NCBI GenBank assembly: GCA_029167225.1
Contig: JARFNK010000003.1
Coordinates: 62,001-126,000 of the forward strand
Reading direction: 5' to 3'
DNA length: 64,000 bases
From: Sphingobium arseniciresistens
Lineage (GTDB): Bacteria > Pseudomonadota > Alphaproteobacteria > Sphingomonadales > Sphingomonadaceae
This document shows positions 3,823 to 35,912 of this stretch, one piece after another; positions within the stretch are counted from its first letter, which is position 1, and every line of letters starts with the position of its first letter. The position numbers and the translations under genes are program-made. The notes beneath the pieces are model-generated. The model saw only the letters and a list, made by a program, of their open reading frames with translations, was not told the DNA's origin and did no database searches.

Positions 3823-4482
3823 TTAGAGTGACAGGTCGATGGGCGGCTTGGCCGCCTTGGGGAAGCCGATGACCTCTGCCTCGCCGCGCGGCGTCGCCAC
3901 GACGCCCTCTCCATCCTGCGCGATCAGCCAGTTCAGGATGTCGCGGCCATGGCCCCAGCGGCCAAGATCGGCAGCGTCGTTCGCCGAGCCGATCTCGCCG
4001 CCATCGACGCTGTGGCTGCCCCACAGCCGGGCAAGCGCCTGCGCCCCGGCATAATCCATCCGATGATCGTTGCGACTGGCGACGACCACGCTGGGGAATG
4101 GCAGCAGCACCTTCGCCGCAGGGCCGAAGCTGATGAGGCGCAGGTCGTCGCTGGCGGTGTCGATACGCGGCGGTGCGACCAGCATCGCGCCGGCCACGGG
4201 TGTACCATAGGCCGGGCTCTCCAGCGCTGCCCACCAGGCGACGGCATGGGAGGCCAGGCCGCGCGCTACCAGTACGACCGGCCGGTCTGCATTGCGGATG
4301 GCCATGTTCAGGGCGGTGACCCAGGCGTTGCGATTGGGGCTGGACCACAGGCCCAGGTCGACGGGCCGGCAATCGTCCAGATCCTCGTTCCAGCGGCTCA
4401 GCCAGTGGCCCGACCCCGGCTGTTCCATACCCGCCAGCGTCAGGATGATGGGGGTTCGGTCGGTGACATTCTGCTTGGTCAT
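3823..4482 (-). CDS. RBBP9/YdeN-family hydrolase fold with catalytic Ser and His replaced (probable pseudoenzyme)
   Basis: The 219-residue protein is clearly homologous to the RBBP9/YdeN serine hydrolases and to the intact paralogue at 32327-32992. Both have LT-x-x-G...SGPGHW or GSGHW near the N-terminus, LG-x-W-(A/S)SPNRN-x-WV, AWW and VASRND. The nucleophile elbow AHSLGC of the paralogue reads ARGLAS here, so the serine is Gly75. The paralogue's GHSGHIN, with the catalytic histidine, reads GEIGSAN (Glu163, Ser166). The aspartate of SRND (Asp139) is kept. I chose ATG 4482 because AGGAGGAG lies just upstream; the frame runs on to 4542. A TGTCTA-N9-TAGACA palindrome at 4521-4541 precedes it. 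Hydrolysis looks impossible; a binding or regulatory role is inference. Confidence 0.88.
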   Translation of the reverse strand: MTKQNVTDRTPIILTLAGMEQPGSGHWLSRWNEDLDDCRPVDLGLWSSPNRNAWVTALNMAIRNADRPVVLVARGLASHAVAWWAALESPAYGTPVAGAMLVAPPRIDTASDDLRLISFGPAAKVLLPFPSVVVASRNDHRMDYAGAQALARLWGSHSVDGGEIGSANDAADLGRWGHGRDILNWLIAQDGEGVVATPRGEAEVIGFPKAAKPPIDLSL

Positions 4483-4520
4483 GACATCGCTCCTCCTGTT
4501 GATTCGTGAGGATGATGTTA

Positions 4521-4541
4521 TGTCTATTGTTGGAGTAGACA
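4521..4541. promoter_or_regulatory. Palindromic operator TGTCTA-N9-TAGACA upstream of the hydrolase-like gene
   Basis: TGTCTA (4521-4526) and TAGACA (4536-4541) form a perfect 6+6 inverted repeat with a 9-base spacer, 40 bases upstream of the start at 4482. Read along the gene, TTGTCTAC and AATAGA recur at the same spacing upstream of the paralogous gene (32273-32293), 34 bases before its start. The likely role is a binding site of a dimeric regulator shared by both genes. Confidence 0.55.
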
Positions 4542-4591
4542 AGATGGTGGAGCCGAAATGAACCGGCTTTGCGCCAGTCCGTTAAATTGCC

Positions 4592-7500
4592 TCAGTCCGC
4601 CCCATAGCCGCCACCGCCCGGCGTCTCGATCACGAAGACGTCGCCCTCCTCCATCGCCACGGAGGCGGTCGCGGGCAGGCTTTCCGTCCGCCCGTCGGCG
4701 CGCTCCACCCGGTTGATCCCCGGCGCGCCTGGTGCCCCGCCCCGAAGGCCGAAGGCGCCAGCCTCGCGATTGTTGGAGAGGATGCCGGCGAACATCGGCT
4801 GGCGGAAGCGGATGCGCCGCACCGCGCCGTCGCCGCCGCGATGGGTGCCCGTGCCGCCCGATCCCCGGCGGATGGAAAAGCGCTCCACCAGTACCGGGAA
4901 GCGGCTCTCCAGCACTTCGGGATCGGTCAGCTGGCTGTTGGTCATATGCGTCTGCACAGCATCGGCGCCGTCGAAATCCGGTCCTGCGCCAGACCCGCCC
5001 GCGATCGTCTCATAATATTGATGGGTGGCATCGCCGAAGGTCAGGTTGTTCATCGTCCCCTGCGATCCCGCCAGCGCGCCCAGTGCCCCCAGAAGCGCAT
5101 CCGTCACCGCCTGGCTGGTCTCCACATTACCGGCGACGACGGCGGCGGGGCGGCGGGGGTTCAGCATCGATCCTTCGGGAATGTGCAGGGTGACGGGCCG
5201 CATGCAGCCGTCGTTGAGCGGGATCGGCAGGTCGACCAGCAGCCGCATGACATAGAGCACGGCAGCGCGCACCACCGCGACCGGCGCATTGAAATTGTCC
5301 GCCCGCTGCGGGCTGGTGCCGGCGAAGTCGATGGAGATCCCGCCGGCATGATGATCCACCCGCACGGCCACGCAGATATGGCTGCCGCCATCCATCGGGT
5401 AGGTGAAGTTGCCGTCGCGCAGCCGGCCCGCCAACGCGCGCACGGCCGCCTCGGCATGATCCTGCACATGGCCCATATAGGCGCGAACGACCTGCGCGCC
5501 CTGATCGGCGCACAGATCGAGCAGCGCCTGCGCGCCGCGCCGGCAGGCGGCGATCTGCGCGGCGAGATCGGCGATGTTGCGGTCTGGCTTGCGTGCCGGC
5601 CATGGCCCGGAGGCGAGCAACTGGCGCAGTTCCGATTCCTTCAGCACGCCGTCCTCGACGATCAGCATCGCGTCGAGCACGATGCCTTCCTCCTCGATGC
5701 TGACGCTGTCGGGCGGCATCGAGCCGGGGCTCTTGCCGCCGATATCGGCATGATGCCCGCGCGCGGCGACGAAGAAGGCGGGGACTTGCTCGTCCTCGAC
5801 GAACACCGGCGCGATCACGGTGATGTCGGGCAGGTGCGTGCCGCCCTGATAGGGATCGTTCAGCGCATAGACGTCACCCGGCCGGATGCCACGGCCATCG
5901 CTGCCCCTGCGGGTGATGACGGTGCGGATGCTCTCGCCCATCGACCCCAGATGGACCGGAATATGCGGCGCGTTGGCGATGAGGTTGCCGGCGCCGTCGA
6001 ACAGCGCGCAGGAGAAGTCCAGCCGCTCACGGATGTTCACCGAGGCTGCGCTGTGGCGCAGCGCCGCACCCATCTCCCGCGCGATCGCCATGAACAGGCC
6101 GGAGAAGATCTCCAGGCGCACGGGGTCGAGTGCGGTGTCGGCCTTGACCACTGCCCGCGCGGCGGCGCTGCGCTCCAGGATCAGGCAGCCCTCGGCATCG
6201 ACCCGCGCACTCCAGCCCGGCTCGATCACGCTGGTCGCCACCGGATCGACGATCAGTGCAGGCCCGGCGATCCGCGCACCTTCCGCCAGTGCGTCGCGGC
6301 AATGGACAGGGGCATCATGATCGACCCCCGCCATCCGTATGCGGGCATGGGCGGCAGGGGGCAGGGTCCGCTCGGCGGCAAGCGTAGGCGCACCGATTTC
6401 CGCAGCGTCGGATATGGCCTCCACGCTCAGCATGTCGACGATCAGCCCGCCGGGCAGCGCATAGCCGAAACGTTGGCGATAGCGCTCGATGAAGGCGGCA
6501 TGCATCGTCTGCGGATCGGCCATCGGCACTGCAATGCTGCTATCCACCCCCTCGGCGCGCAGATGGGCGAGGGCTTGGGTGTGGATCACGGCCGGGGCGA
6601 TGCCCTGCGCTTCAAGCGCGGCGCGGGCGTCCGCATCCAGCCCGCTCAGTGCTGCGTTGATGGCGTCCATATTGCCGGGGTCCAGCGGGATGGCGACGGT
6701 GCGTTCGCGCATCGCGCGCCGGTCGGCCAGCCCCATGCCATAGGCGGAAAGCACGCCGGCCAGCGGATGGATGAGCACGGTCTCGATCCCCAGCGCATCG
6801 GCGACCAGGCAGGCATGCTGCCCGCCCGCGCCGCCGAAACAGGCGAGCGCGAACTGCCGCACATCATGGCCGCGCGATATGGAGATGGCCTTGATGGCGT
6901 TGGCCATGTCGGCAACGGCAATGGCGATCAGCCCTTCGGCAAGGTCCAGTGGCGCGGGCGTGCTGCCGGTCGCCGCACCGACGGCGGCGCAGAGTTCGCT
7001 CATCTTCGCAGCGGCGGCATCCCGGTCCAGCGGCGCGTCGCCGCCAGGCCCGAACAGGCGGGGGAAGAAATCGGGTTGCAGCTTGCCCAGCAGCAGGTTG
7101 CAGTCGGTGACGGTCAGCGGACCGCCGCGCCGGTAGCAGGCCGGTCCGGGCACGGCGCCCGCCGAATGCGGCCCAACCGACAGTGTGGTCCCTGCGCCCT
7201 GGCCCGCCACCGCGCAGATCGATCCGCCGCCCGCCGCCACTGTATGGATGCGCAGCATCGGCGCGCGGATATGGACGCCCGCCACCTCCGCCTCATGGTC
7301 ATGCTCGTGCTGCCCGGCATGCAGGGAGATGTCGGTCGAGGTGCCGCCCATGTCGAAGCCGATGACGCGGGTGAAGCCTGCCCGCTCCGCCGTCTTCGCC
7401 ATGCCGACGATGCCGCCCGCCGGGCCGGACAGGATCGCATCCTTGCCCCGGAAGGCGCCGCCGCTGGTAAGGCCGCCGCTCGACTGCATGAACAGCGGGG

Positions 7501-8257
7501 CGTTCTCCTCGCCCAGTGCCGCGTCCAGTCCCGCCACATAGGCGTGCAGCGCCGGCGAGAGATAGGCATCGACCACGCTTGTCTGCGCGCGGGGGATCAG
7601 GCGGATGAGCGCGCCGACCTCATGGCTCACGGAAATCTGCGTGAAGCCCAGTTCCCGCGCGATCCGGGCCAGCGCCCTTTCATGCGCGTCATGGCGGTAG
7701 CCGTGGAGCAGGGCGATCGCGATCGCCTCGATCCCGCGGGCTCGTGCCGCGGAAAGGGCTGCGCGGGCAGAGTCCTCGTCCAGCGGCTGCAGCACTTCTC
7801 CCTGCGCGCTCATCCGCTCGTCGATTTCGGCGACGTCCATGTAGAGCGGCGCCGGCTTCACGATATGGCGGGCGAAGATGTCGGGTCGCGCCTGCGTGCC
7901 GATCGCCAGCGCATCGCCAAAGCCGCGCGTGATCGCCAGCAGCACCGGCGCACCCTTGCGCTCCAGCAGCGCATTGGTGGCGATGGTGGTGCCGATGCGG
8001 ATGTCTGCGCGCGGCAGCGGCCCCTGCGGCACGCCCGACAGCATGCGGATCGCGGCGATCGCGGCGTCGTCATATTGGCCGGGATTGTCGGACAGCAGCT
8101 TGGCCGTCGCCAGCTTGCCGTCCGGCCCGCGCGCCACCACATCGGTAAAGGTGCCGCCCCGATCGATCCAGAAATGCCAGTGGGGCTCCGTAGCCGGACG
8201 GGAAGATGCTGGCTGGGGCTCTGACAGAGGTTGGGGCGCTGGGGTGAGGCTGTTCAT
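4592..8257 (-). CDS. 5-oxoprolinase (fused HyuA-HyuB type, ATP-dependent)
   Basis: A 1221-residue protein that joins the two hydantoinase/oxoprolinase subunits in one chain, as in eukaryotic OPLAH. The N-terminal half (about residues 30-690) is the HyuA ATPase-like domain, with DRGGTFTD near residue 33, TNALLERKG and FDMGGTSTD. The C-terminal half (about 705-1221) is the HyuB domain, starting near [14 protein letters not shown] and ending with [11 protein letters not shown]. The reaction expected of this form is ATP-driven opening of 5-oxoproline to glutamate, a salvage step of glutathione turnover. The ATG at 8257 gives the full family length. It stands alone, followed on the same strand by the hydrolase-like gene after 109 bases. 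Confidence 0.9.
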
Positions 8258-31719: not shown

Positions 31720-32136
31720 ATGCTTTCGCAGAAGACCCGATACGCCATCCGTGCATTGCAACATCTTGCGGATCGTTTCGGCCAAGGGCCGGTGCCCCTC
31801 ACCCAGATCGCCGAAGAGCAGAATATCCCTGCCAAGTTCCTGACGGTCATCCTCTCCGAAATGTCGCGGGAGGGGCTGGTCGCGACCCAGCGCGGACGTG
31901 ACGGAGGCTATTGGCTGGCGCTGTCTCCCATCGACATTAGCTATGGCGACATCGTGCGGCTGACGCGCGGTTCGCTGGCGCTGACGCCCTGCGCGAGCCG
32001 CTTCGCGCATGAGACATGCACCAACTGCCTGCCGGAGGAGGAATGCCGCCTGCACAAGGTGATGCTCCGCGTGCGGGACGAGACGGCCAAGGTGCTGGAC
32101 GGCATCAGCCTGGCGGAAATGCTGCCGCAACTCTGA
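31720..32136 (+). CDS. Rrf2 family transcriptional regulator with four cysteines
   Basis: A 138-residue winged-helix protein starting MLSQKTRYAIRALQHLA, the standard Rrf2 opening, with the recognition segment IPAKFLTVILSEMSREGLV. The C-terminal part has Cys91, Cys100, Cys103 and Cys109 (spacing 8-2-5), which probably hold an iron-sulfur cluster, as in IscR, NsrR and RsrR, though the spacing differs from IscR. It could sense iron-sulfur status, redox, nitric oxide or sulfur supply. A 22-base inverted repeat directly upstream suggests autoregulation. It lies 191 bases before the intact hydrolase, on the same strand. Confidence 0.9.
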   Translation: MLSQKTRYAIRALQHLADRFGQGPVPLTQIAEEQNIPAKFLTVILSEMSREGLVATQRGRDGGYWLALSPIDISYGDIVRLTRGSLALTPCASRFAHETCTNCLPEEECRLHKVMLRVRDETAKVLDGISLAEMLPQL

Positions 32137-32272
32137 CGATTTGCCGGTGGGCGCAGATTGCCTGCCGCACCCTCCATGCCCCTGTTTTCACGCCGGGATA
32201 CCCCGTCCGCGCGGTGGGCTGGTGCCCGGTTTCCAGTTGCCCAGATTTTGCCACATTTGGGCGCTGGCCTAT

Positions 32273-32293
32273 TGTCTACCAGAAAAATAGAAT
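32273..32293. promoter_or_regulatory. TGTCTA-N9-TAGAAT element upstream of the intact hydrolase gene
   Basis: TGTCTA (32273-32278), 9 bases, then TAGAAT (32288-32293), 34 bases before the start at 32327. Compared in gene orientation with the site at 4541-4521, TTGTCTAC and AATAGA are identical and equally spaced. The right half is imperfect (TAGAAT for TAGACA). Confidence 0.5.
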
Positions 32294-32326
32294 TATCTGT
32301 AGCCTCAGGATAAGAGGAGCAGGTTC

Positions 32327-32992
32327 ATGGACCGATTCGGACATGCAGGTGATGCACGACAGCCCGTGGTGCTGACGATTCCGGGCCTCAACAATAGCGG
32401 GCCGGGCCATTGGCAGAGCATCTGGGAAGAGACGCGCGGCGATTGCCAGCGTGTCGATCTGGGGAGTTGGGCGAGCCCCAATCGCAACAGCTGGGTGAGC
32501 CGGCTGGACGCCGCCATTCGCGATGCCGAAGGGCCGATCGTCCTTGCCGCGCATAGCCTGGGCTGCCTGGCCGTCGCCTGGTGGGGCGCGCTGCAGAGCC
32601 AGCCTTATGGCTGGCCCGTCGCTGGCGCGCTGCTGGTCGCGCCGCCCGATTGCGAGCGGATGGAAACGCCCGAGACGATCGGCGGCTTCGCGCCGGTGCC
32701 GCGCGCGCCGCTGCCGTTTCCCTCGATCCTCGTGGCGAGCCGCAACGACCCCTATATCTTCTATGAACGCGCCCACAGCATCGGCAAGTATTGGGGCAGC
32801 CAGATCGTCGATGCCGGCCATAGCGGCCATATCAACGCCCAGTCCGGCCTCGGCGAATGGCGCTTTGGCCAGGGCCTGCTCGACCGGCTGATCGCGCTTG
32901 CGGGGGATCAGGCCGCGCTCGCCCGGCAGCTTCGGCCTGCGCTGGTTCCCCATGCCGACCGACGGCCGGTGCCGCAGGTGGAGCGGGCCTGA
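32327..32992 (+). CDS. RBBP9/YdeN-family alpha/beta serine hydrolase (intact paralogue)
   Basis: A 221-residue cytoplasmic hydrolase of the RBBP9/YdeN family, with the triad in place: Ser77 in AAHSLGCLA, Asp141 in VASRNDPY and the histidine in GHSGHINAQSG (His168, or His165). The oxyanion region LTIPGLNNSGPGHW lies near residue 20. The physiological substrate is unknown for the bacterial family. The start has AGGAGCAGG upstream. It is roughly 45 percent alike by eye, over most of its length, to the gene at 3823-4482, which has lost Ser and His. It shares an upstream element with it and sits between an Rrf2 regulator and yezD. Confidence 0.92.
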   Translation: MDRFGHAGDARQPVVLTIPGLNNSGPGHWQSIWEETRGDCQRVDLGSWASPNRNSWVSRLDAAIRDAEGPIVLAAHSLGCLAVAWWGALQSQPYGWPVAGALLVAPPDCERMETPETIGGFAPVPRAPLPFPSILVASRNDPYIFYERAHSIGKYWGSQIVDAGHSGHINAQSGLGEWRFGQGLLDRLIALAGDQAALARQLRPALVPHADRRPVPQVERA

Positions 32993-33082
32993 TCCCCGGA
33001 TCATCGCATTGACGCCATGCCTCGGATCGCCCGGATGATGGTGGACATAGCGAAACTTGTTGCCGCCCCATATTTGCTATTT

Positions 33083-33107
33083 TGTCTATCTTATGAGTTG
33101 AGATAAA
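33083..33107. promoter_or_regulatory. Weak TGTCTA-type element upstream of the YezD gene
   Basis: TGTCTA at 33083-33088, then TTGAGA at 33098-33103, the same 9-base spacing but only four of six bases right in the second half. TTTGTCT (33081) also pairs with AGATAAA (33101) at six of seven. It may belong with the stronger sites at 4521 and 32273, or be chance. Confidence 0.3.
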
Positions 33108-33122
33108 CCGGGTGGGAGAGGG

Positions 33123-33314
33123 ATGAATATGAGCGAACAGCAACAGATTCGAGCCGCCCGCGAAGTCCTGGGCGGGCGACATGACATAGAGTTGAGCATC
33201 GATGCGGTACGCAAGGCGCTGGATGCGCTGCGTTATGGATCGATCACCCTGACGGTGCACGACGCGCGCGTCGTGCAGCTCGACGTGACGGAGCGGACCC
33301 GCTTCGCGGGCTGA
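33123..33314 (+). CDS. YezD family small protein (DUF2292)
   Basis: A 63-residue protein with the YezD/DUF2292 core: ALDALRYGSITLTVHDARVVQLDVTERTRF. Members are found widely as single small proteins, often near sulfur-assimilation genes, but no molecular role is known. The start (ATGAATATGAGC) follows GGGAGAGGG. It lies between the intact hydrolase and the TonB receptor, 130 bases from one and 159 from the other. A sulfur link for this neighbourhood is inference from the usual company of YezD. Confidence 0.85.
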   Translation: MNMSEQQQIRAAREVLGGRHDIELSIDAVRKALDALRYGSITLTVHDARVVQLDVTERTRFAG

Positions 33315-33392
33315 CAAGGCCTTCCGCCCGACCGGGAGGCGCCATCAAGACCATGTCCCGAAGTCCGCCGAGCGGCGCGGGAGGCATAATGT

Positions 33393-33414
33393 GGGCAGCG
33401 TTCTGCCCGCGCAT
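33393..33414 (+). terminator. Hairpin with T-run between yezD-like gene and TonB receptor
   Basis: GGGCAG (33393-33398) and CTGCCC (33403-33408) pair around CGTT, with one or two further outer pairs, and TTTT follows six bases later. It may end the yezD transcript or attenuate the receptor gene. The stem is short, so confidence is moderate. Confidence 0.4.
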
Positions 33415-33473
33415 CTTTTCAGGCTTCGACCGGACCACCGGAGACGCCGCAAGATCATATCGAAGGGGATCAT

Positions 33474-35912
33474 ATGACTGCGCGTTTCCTGTTGCTCGCC
33501 ACCGTGGCGAGCGCAACCTTTGCCGTGCCTGCCTATGCGCAGGACGCTGGCACCGCACCCGCGGCCCAAGAGGCATCTCCCGAGGCGGCCGCTGGTGCGC
33601 CTGGTGAGATCGTCGTCACCGCACGGCGGCGCGCAGAAGAAATCCAGGATGTGCCGCTCGCCGTCTCCGTGCTGAATGCAGCGGCCATCGAACAGACGGG
33701 CAGCTACAATATCAGCCGCCTGCAGCAGTTGCAGCCGACGTTGCAATTCTATTCCTCGAACCCGCGCAACAGTTCCATCAACATCCGTGGCATCGGTGCG
33801 CCGCTTGGCCTCACCAATGACGGGATCGAGCAGGGCGTCGGGATCTATGTCGATCAAGTCTATTACAACCGTGTCGCATCGGCGACGCTGGATTTTGTCG
33901 ACATCGACCAGATCGAGGTGCTGCGCGGGCCGCAGGGATCGCTCTACGGCAAGAACACCACGGCCGGCGCCATCAACATCACCACGCGCGCGCCCAGCTT
34001 CAGCTATGAAGGCCAGGCCGAGATTTCCGTCGGCAACCTCGGCTTCAAGCAGGCCAAGGCATCCGTCTCCGGCCCGCTGACGGATCGGCTCGCGGCGCGG
34101 ATCAGCGTGTCTGCGACCGACCGCAACGGCACCATCTACAATGTCGCCACCGATCGCCGCGTCAATTCGCAGGACAATCTCGGCCTGCGCGGCAGCCTGT
34201 TGTGGAAGGCGACCGATACGCTGAACCTAACGCTGTCGGGTGACTATAATGTGCAGAACCCAGTCTGCTGCGCGCAGATCTATGCCGGTGTCGGATCGAC
34301 CCAGCGTGTCGCCGCACGCCAATATGCCGCGCTGATCGCGCTCTTCCCCGGCTATTCGGTGCCGAGCACCGATCCGTTCGACCGCCTGACCGATCTGGAC
34401 GCGCAGCTGCACGCCCGCAACGAGGTGGGCGGCGTGTCGCTGCGCGCCGAATGGGATCTGGGCCCCGGCACGCTGACGTCTGTCTCCGCCTATCGCTATT
34501 GGGACTGGCAGCCCGCCAATGACCGCGACTTCACCGGCCTGCCGATCACCACCAAGTCGCAGAACCCGACCCAGCAGAAGCAGTGGACGCAGGAAATCCG
34601 CTATGCGCAGAGCAGCGACGCTCTGGACTTCGTCGTCGGCGGCTTCGCCTTCTACCAGAAGATCCACACGACCGGTTCGCAGGTTCAGGGTTCGGCCGCG
34701 AGCCGCTGGTTCCTGACCGGGGCGTTGCGTGGCAACCCCGCCGTGCTGGAAGGGCTGGAAGCGGACAACGACATCCGCCTGAAGAACACCAGCCTTGCCG
34801 CTTTCGGCCAGCTGACCTGGCATGTCACCGACAAGCTCAGCCTGCAGCCTGGCCTGCGGATCAACTATGACAAGAAGGAAGGCAGCTATAATTCCGTCGT
34901 GACCGGCACCTCCTCCACGGGCGTGCGGCAACTGGTGACGTTCACCAGCACCGATCCGTGGATCGTCGCCCAGCGCGGCGTGCTGGCGCCGCAATCCTTC
35001 GACGTGTCGTTCAGCGACTGGAACCTGTCCTACGACTTCACCGCTTCCTATGAATTCTCGCGCGACGTTATGGCCTATGCGACCTATTCGCGCGCCTTCA
35101 AGTCGGGCGGCGTCAACCTGAACGGCGTGCCGCTGAACGCCGCCGGTGTCCCGCAGACGAGTGTGGCAACGGTGAAGCCGGAGAAGGTCAATCATTATGA
35201 AGTCGGCCTCAAGACCCAGTTCTGGGATCGCAAGGCGACGCTCAACCTGTCGGGCTTCTGGACGGAGATCGGCGATTATCAGGCGATCGTGAACGATGGC
35301 CAGAACTCGACCCTGCGTGGCTATCTGGCGAATGCGGACAAGGTACGGACACGCGGCATCGAGGCTGATTTCTCGGTTCGTCCGTCCGATCGGATCAATG
35401 CCTATGCGAACGGCGCCTATACCGATCCGAAATATGTGAAGTTCACCAATGCGCCCTGCCCGCCGGAGCTGTCCGGTGGCGCTTCGGGCACGACGCCCGG
35501 CGCGCCCGGCGTGCCTGGTGCCGTCAGCCCGCTGGTGTGCGACATTTCCGGCCAGTTGCTGCCCGGCATCTCCAAATGGTCGCTGTCCTATGGCGTGGAA
35601 TTCAACGTGCCCACCACCTTCCTGGGGGATGAGGGCGGCGAGTTCTACATCGGCTGGGATGGCAGCTATCGCTCCAAATTCTCGTCCAATGCGTCGCGCT
35701 CCATCTATACGGACATCGACGGCTATTCGCTGAACAACCTGCGGATCGGCTTCCGCCGGGAAAGCGGGCTCAACATCTATGGATGGGTGCGCAACATCTT
35801 CGACAAGGATTATTTCGAGCAGTTGGCGGTCACGCCGAACAATACCGGCCTGATCGCCGGCCAGCCGGGCGACCCGCGCACCTATGGCCTGACGATCAAG
35901 GCGAAGTTCTGA
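33474..35912 (+). CDS. TonB-dependent outer membrane receptor
   Basis: An 812-residue outer-membrane receptor with a signal peptide (FLLLATVASATFAVPAYAQ), a TonB-box-like segment EIVVTARRRAEEIQDVPLAV, the plug domain (about residues 55-165, with LRGPQGSLYGKNTTAGAINI) and a C-terminal barrel ending in AKF with an aromatic last residue. This style (EIQDVPLAVSVL) is typical of the very large receptor family in sphingomonads, where members import siderophores, oligosaccharides, aromatics or organosulfur compounds. The ligand cannot be told. The start follows GAAGGGGATCAT, and a good terminator lies after it. Confidence 0.93.
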   Translation: MTARFLLLATVASATFAVPAYAQDAGTAPAAQEASPEAAAGAPGEIVVTARRRAEEIQDVPLAVSVLNAAAIEQTGSYNISRLQQLQPTLQFYSSNPRNSSINIRGIGAPLGLTNDGIEQGVGIYVDQVYYNRVASATLDFVDIDQIEVLRGPQGSLYGKNTTAGAINITTRAPSFSYEGQAEISVGNLGFKQAKASVSGPLTDRLAARISVSATDRNGTIYNVATDRRVNSQDNLGLRGSLLWKATDTLNLTLSGDYNVQNPVCCAQIYAGVGSTQRVAARQYAALIALFPGYSVPSTDPFDRLTDLDAQLHARNEVGGVSLRAEWDLGPGTLTSVSAYRYWDWQPANDRDFTGLPITTKSQNPTQQKQWTQEIRYAQSSDALDFVVGGFAFYQKIHTTGSQVQGSAASRWFLTGALRGNPAVLEGLEADNDIRLKNTSLAAFGQLTWHVTDKLSLQPGLRINYDKKEGSYNSVVTGTSSTGVRQLVTFTSTDPWIVAQRGVLAPQSFDVSFSDWNLSYDFTASYEFSRDVMAYATYSRAFKSGGVNLNGVPLNAAGVPQTSVATVKPEKVNHYEVGLKTQFWDRKATLNLSGFWTEIGDYQAIVNDGQNSTLRGYLANADKVRTRGIEADFSVRPSDRINAYANGAYTDPKYVKFTNAPCPPELSGGASGTTPGAPGVPGAVSPLVCDISGQLLPGISKWSLSYGVEFNVPTTFLGDEGGEFYIGWDGSYRSKFSSNASRSIYTDIDGYSLNNLRIGFRRESGLNIYGWVRNIFDKDYFEQLAVTPNNTGLIAGQPGDPRTYGLTIKAKF

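Follow-up and report, generated by a model that had tools for sequence, protein, structure and literature searches.

The window analysed here is a stretch of 64,000 nucleotides from Sphingobium arseniciresistens. It carries two genes of one hydrolase family, which we call the active paralogue and the substituted paralogue, the latter lacking residues of the catalytic triad. Genomes, contigs and loci are denoted by labels of our own, and G000 is the genome to which the window belongs. The features around the substituted paralogue are as follows:

3823..4482, minus strand: gene of the substituted paralogue, a pseudoenzyme of 219 amino acids in the Ser_hydrolase family PF06821 (profile match, AlphaFold2 model and top PDB match 3bdv)
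3985..3987, minus strand: Ser166 codon in the position of the catalytic His (Ser in 6/6 pseudoenzymes, His in 116/116 active relatives)
4066..4068, minus strand: Asp139 codon, the third triad residue, present in the window gene and replaced by Asn in the G458 orthologue
4258..4263, minus strand: Arg74-Gly75 codons in place of the His-Ser of the nucleophile elbow (Arg and Gly in 6/6 pseudoenzymes, His and Ser in 116/116 active relatives)
4490..4497, minus strand: Shine-Dalgarno-like AGGAGGAG ahead of the ATG at 4482
4519..4542, minus strand: candidate operator TTGTCTACTCCAACAATAGACATA, an imperfect inverted repeat TGTCTA-N9-TAGACA before the substituted gene, found by pattern search
4592-8257, minus strand: ORF of 1221 amino acids just upstream of the substituted gene, matching both halves of a caprolactamase/hydantoinase-type enzyme (below cut-offs)

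The active paralogue lies further along the window, on the other strand, within a module that spans 31720-35912:

31720..32136, plus strand: gene of an Rrf2-family regulator, the proposed owner of the operator (PF02082, E 1.7e-34; above the NCBIfam cut-off for the Rrf2 superfamily)
32272..32295, plus strand: operator before the active paralogue, a perfect match to the pattern
32327..32992, plus strand: active paralogue, 221 amino acids, with an intact Ser77-Asp-His triad (profile match and sequence)
33082..33105, plus strand: third operator site, with one mismatch, before the OscA-like gene (pattern search)
33123..33314, plus strand: DUF2292 (OscA-like) protein of 63 amino acids (PF10055, E 2.9e-15, above cut-off)
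33474..35912, plus strand: TonB-dependent receptor gene (PF00593 and PF07715)

Both ORFs match PF06821 over the whole domain, with E values of 1.2e-34 for the substituted paralogue and 7.4e-56 for the active one, and share 47-48% identity in an alignment of about 184 residues, which bears out an earlier note on this DNA that had read them as paralogues with the same fold. The substituted ORF scores 120.2 bits against a curated cut-off of 22. In a profile search of the whole genome, these two ORFs were the only strong PF06821 matches; one further place lies barely above the cut-off (24.7 bits) and two lie below it. The genome, with 6.6 Mb in 120 contigs, is a large one, and its estimated contamination is 6.02%.

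An AlphaFold2 model of the substituted protein, built on an alignment of 35 rows, has a pLDDT of 87 and a pTM of 0.83. The closest solved structure to the model is 3bdv, a YdeN-like hydrolase (E 1.8e-12), and a sequence search of solved structures with the same protein returned 3bdv alone. According to the model, the alpha/beta-hydrolase fold is retained. The protein thus resembles the YdeN/RBBP9 family (PF06821; PDB 3bdv, 1uxo and 9fcr) in its whole-domain sequence match and predicted fold, but departs from it in the replacement of the nucleophile Ser, the catalytic His and proline 17. It is a PF06821 member by descent and fold, not by serine-hydrolase function.

The earlier note had described the divergence at the triad, and the description is exact: AHSLGC, with Ser77, is replaced by ARGLAS, with Gly75, and GHSGHIN by GEIGSAN, where Ser166 occupies the place of His. 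We take the roles of Ser, His and Asp to be those usual in PF06821 proteins. When six orthologues of the substituted protein are compared (their discovery is described below), Gly replaces the nucleophile Ser, and Ser the catalytic His, in all six. The statement that Asp is kept holds for five of them, the window protein included, but not for G458.

The triad positions belong to a wider set of switches. P17A, Q28L, H74R, S75G, H166S and I167A are fixed in 6/6 substituted forms, while the original residue is kept in 113-116 of 116 active relatives (proline 17 in all 116). A161G is likewise fixed in the six, and S171A is found in five. Active relatives have 57 positions with conservation of 97% or more, and 40 of these are unchanged in at least five of the six. 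Twelve of the 17 near-invariant positions that have been lost fall at residues 17-28, 74-77 and 166-169, which we read as the oxyanion loop, the nucleophile elbow and the His loop. The reaction centre is therefore altered alike in all six proteins, and the fold is kept. Residue 78 is Ser in the window protein and Cys in the other five. Judging from these residues, it is very probable that the substituted protein lacks serine-hydrolase activity.

The distribution of the substituted form was examined in 94 genomes of the genus, which yielded 103 match rows in 84 genomes; all rows were inspected save two weak ones (G331 C11 and G273 C129, with 34% and 33% identity, respectively). Six genomes carry it: G000, G397, G436, G422, G458 and G403. 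The form is thus sparse within the genus, and the idea that it is an oddity of one strain is ruled out. In all, 125 distinct ORFs from the genus, from part of the family and from 13 loci of named records were inspected. Two of them together make up a single broken gene of G474; the other 123 comprise the six substituted forms, 116 proteins with Ser, His and Asp, and one protein (L048).

The last two cases deserve separate mention. L048 (L048:8001-8510), a relative from Polymorphobacter glacialis, has lost Ser alone (AHGLGC) and still has His at the His position (GHLG); this Ser to Gly change is separate from that of the six, and no operator was found before the gene within 2 mismatches. The broken second copy of G474 (L159) has lost its frame, yet AHSLGS and GHIN remain in the pieces. 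This is decay with the catalytic residues mostly kept, a pattern opposite to that of the substituted forms.

Outside the genus, 397 genomes of the family were searched in two scans, and the loci inspected revealed no further copy as close as the six. The first scan gave matches in 139 genomes, of which the best 30 loci were inspected. In the second, a profile scan, no match exceeded the active protein of G075 apart from G422, itself part of the profile (275.8 vs 381.4 bits); such a profile is biased towards the sequences it was built from, and the triad was inspected in a minority of the lower rows, so that a divergent homologue beyond the genus may have escaped notice. Plasmid relatives were found in 278 records, all with less than 60% identity; the best 20 of the 278 reach at most 47.7%.

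On a tree of 123 rows that includes all columns, the six form one clade with an SH-aLRT of 99. When columns 17-25, 72-79 and 158-170, which contain most positions of the catalytic loops, were removed, the clade was recovered from 55 rows with support of 97/92 and in 97% of 200 bootstrap trees. G403 has a long branch, and its placement is therefore the least sure. The nearest active relative outside the clade is the G075 protein. The active paralogue is present in 5/6 carrier genomes; it was not found in G458, whose genome is 78% complete.

To measure selection, dN/dS was computed for 6 of the 15 pairs of substituted genes. The pair G422-G458, the only one with dS below 2, gave an omega of 0.073 (dN 0.103, dS 1.40; likelihood ratio vs omega 1 = 158.5). 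G000-G422 gave 0.16 at a dS of 2.17, and the other four pairs were saturated, so that their omega is not usable. For comparison, omega was 0.052-0.151 in the active pairs with finite dS (four of five), and 0.017-0.123 in seven neighbouring gene pairs of G422-G458, five of which lie below 0.073. Between G000 and G397, identity is 60% for the substituted protein vs 81% for the active paralogue. The substituted protein evolves faster than the active one, yet far from neutrally, and purifying selection on the clade is supported, as judged from its one best measurable pair. The check that the earlier note had proposed, a search for a conserved orthologous group with low dN/dS, has thus given both: a monophyletic group in 6/94 genomes of the genus, and a low ratio in the pair that permits measurement. 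Its reading as a selected pseudoenzyme is supported, the form being neither restricted to one strain nor under relaxed selection in that pair.

For the ribosome site that the earlier note judged good, a Shine-Dalgarno-like sequence is present ahead of the start codon, and the conserved promoter element that it mentioned is real. The operator pattern, TTGTCWAY-N8-TAGANWTA with core TTGTCWAYN8TAGA, was derived from nine promoters that include those of both window paralogues; hence, its real test is its rarity in the genome and its occurrence at promoters that were not used. As a control, the pattern was read backwards. In the 6.6-Mb genome, the core is matched perfectly at two sites only, those before the substituted and active genes (control, one). 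The longer pattern with up to one mismatch finds three sites (control, 0); with 2 mismatches, 9 sites are found vs 17 for the control, which is no more than background. Across the 94 genomes of the genus there are 256 operator sites, distributed over 91 genomes, vs 32 control sites.

The element also recurs at other genes of the hydrolase family. A perfect site precedes five of the six substituted genes, and a site with 3 mismatches precedes the sixth (control, none). Upstream of 117 other relatives, 109 sites are found within 2 mismatches and 114 within 3, compared with 0 and 1 in reversed upstream sequences. Control of the substituted gene together with its active paralogue is well supported, and since the operator is common to both, the two proteins are probably made together.

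What the operator responds to can be approached through the genes that carry it. We examined 13 stretches around operator sites in related genomes, hand-picked among the sites listed, so that they represent a choice and not a census. Serine acetyltransferase genes of the EpsC type lie at two sites: L189 (198.5 bits vs an NCBIfam cut-off of 150), with a divergent TauE gene, and L196 (158.9 vs 150). Sulfatase genes lie at L191, divergent from a TonB receptor gene, and at L201. The genes at other sites encode an NMT1-type substrate-binding protein (L190), a NAD_binding_9 protein (L194), and DUF2292 and TonB receptor proteins (L199). L198 and L200 contain the substituted gene of G397 and an active gene with the small protein encoded downstream of it. 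No clear sulfur gene was seen alongside the sites of L192, L193, L195 and L197.

Genes of sulfur metabolism also surround several copies of the hydrolase genes. In G403, the substituted gene follows, on the same strand and at a distance of about 0.5 kb, cysD, cysNC and a cysQ-like gene; the first two exceed their NCBIfam cut-offs, and the third falls below its own. In G436 the neighbour, lying end to end with it, is an EpsC-type gene with a one-mismatch operator site of its own. G397 also has an EpsC-type gene, which shares 83% identity with that of G436; it lies about 1.3 kb from the substituted copy, with a dicarboxylate-symporter-type gene between them. The active relative in G075 is located between an Rrf2 gene (PF02082) and genes for a sulfate ABC transporter, of which the substrate-binding protein and the CysT permease score above cut-off and the ATPase above a subfamily cut-off. 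In the window, the immediate neighbours of the substituted gene are not sulfur genes: they are the fused hydantoinase/caprolactamase-like ORF and a PanS-like transporter gene, both with matches below cut-offs. The copies of G422 and G458 have non-sulfur neighbours too. A second active paralogue in G462 (L084:4569-7289) lies near a gene for uroporphyrinogen-III methyltransferase and a sulfite/nitrite reductase-like gene, the latter with matches below cut-offs.

The substituted gene thus shares its operator with sulfur genes, as a member of a sulfur-limitation regulon would. That the operator marks a sulfur regulon is highly likely on these associations, and TTGTCWAY-N8-TAGANWTA may be regarded as a candidate sulfur operator of the whole genus.

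The module of the window combines an Rrf2 regulator, a YdeN-type hydrolase, a DUF2292/OscA-like protein and a TonB receptor with two operator sites. In G436, G422, G472 and G075, too, the active gene has an Rrf2 gene close by. By its position, the Rrf2 protein is most likely the one that controls the operator; its own gene has no operator site within 3 mismatches. The DUF2292 protein scores 56 bits against the PF10055 cut-off of 22, and reaches 30.8 bits (E 2.2e-07) against a cut-off of 85 in the NCBIfam model for the sulfur starvation response protein OscA (NF033785). In a passage of a study of Pseudomonas protegens, oscA is named among the sulfur starvation genes (PMC12892942).

Altogether, a likely explanation of these observations is that a former hydrolase of the sulfur regulon has been kept as a protein that binds without cutting. 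A duplicate of the YdeN/RBBP9-type hydrolase of the sphingomonad sulfur regulon would have lost the serine-hydrolase machinery, probably once. The Rrf2 protein, whose gene lies next to that of the active paralogue, would act as a repressor that binds the operator and lets go upon limitation of sulfur (cysteine), and both paralogues would then be made together. The substituted one, catalytically silent, would hold a sulfur-related small molecule, the active paralogue or a partner of the latter through the old pocket or surface, and this binding would tune sulfur scavenging. Since the protein has neither a nucleophile nor a base to form an acyl-enzyme, it should act by binding; the most likely reading of its sequence is a non-catalytic binding protein induced by sulfur limitation. 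That its target is a ligand or partner in the pathway of the active paralogue has, in our estimate, about even chances. A more specific speculation is that it may be a receptor for a sulfur metabolite, in which a sulfur compound would sit in the old active site, with help from the clade-fixed Arg74, and the protein would signal to, or gate, the active hydrolase or an uptake system; we consider this version rather unlikely.

One branch of the binding explanation can be stated alone: the substituted protein might pair with the active paralogue in a complex, and inhibit, activate or stabilize it. The common operator, which makes joint production probable, and the presence of the active paralogue in five of the six carriers agree with such a regulatory partner, but the incomplete G458 genome has yielded none, and we regard the branch as somewhat unlikely when taken by itself. 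Less probable still is an altered enzyme, in which other residues (for instance Arg74, Ser166 or Asp160) would serve a different reaction. New chemistry would also give the fixation of Arg74, Gly75, Gly161 and Ser166 in all six, and the sulfur genes nearby offer unusual substrates. However, no conserved set of Ser, His and Asp or Cys is in sight, as Asp139 itself gives way to Asn in G458; Cys78 is nothing new, being Cys in 117/117 other relatives as well as in five substituted forms; and the conserved residues at 17-28 are lost. As for a decaying duplicate, a pseudogene in the making, the lost catalytic residues, the sporadic occurrence and the faster evolution would fit, but six intact frames, the low omega of the best pair, identical new residues fixed in every copy, the kept operator and the reverse pattern of the G474 copy (frame lost, AHSLG and GHIN present) make it very improbable, as the earlier note had argued.

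The binding explanation has parallels among known systems. The alpha/beta-hydrolase fold is already known to include pseudoenzymes. The plant receptor GID1 evolved from a hydrolase, with the fold kept, the triad damaged and a binding role. The substituted clade resembles receptors and pseudoenzymes of the GID1 type in its kept fold and damaged triad, and in the binding role proposed here, but it is of unrelated lineage. In a Foldseek search with the model, receptors of the strigolactone/karrikin type appeared only among general alpha/beta-hydrolase matches. Regarding control, Rrf2 proteins of the CymR type govern cysteine metabolism, and the likeness extends to the combination of an Rrf2 regulator with serine acetyltransferase and other sulfur genes; the window Rrf2 protein, however, scores 66.3 bits against the CymR equivalog cut-off of 195, with its IscR match below cut-off too, and its link to the operator is drawn from gene position. 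A further close relation is the active sphingomonad paralogue, such as that of the window, which has the same operator and about 47% identity but differs in its intact AHSLGC and GHIN motifs and in its seat in the Rrf2-OscA-TonB module.

A literature search that left aside most subscription papers returned nothing on the substituted protein, on YdeN-type pseudoenzymes or on an Rrf2 sulfur operator of sphingomonads. What the sequences suggest as new is the regulon, in which an inverted-repeat operator would tie a substituted and an active hydrolase to sulfur genes. To our knowledge, few pseudoenzymes of bacteria have been placed in a clear physiological setting. Here catalytic loss and selection coincide with a common sulfur-type operator and with an active paralogue that the cell also encodes, so that environmental bacteria could serve for a direct test of what such a protein does. 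The findings further suggest that YdeN-type hydrolases have a part in the sulfur nutrition of sphingomonads, and yield a candidate operator for the sulfur genes of the genus.

A minor observation concerns the C-terminus. The substituted protein ends in a DLSL tail (3826-3837), found in five of the six substituted forms and missing from G403. The possibility that it is a docking peptide peculiar to the substituted form is weakened because an active relative (L060) ends in DLSL too; the termini of other active relatives are DLSI, ELSV or DLGV. The tail may be ancestral, and is possibly an old docking peptide.
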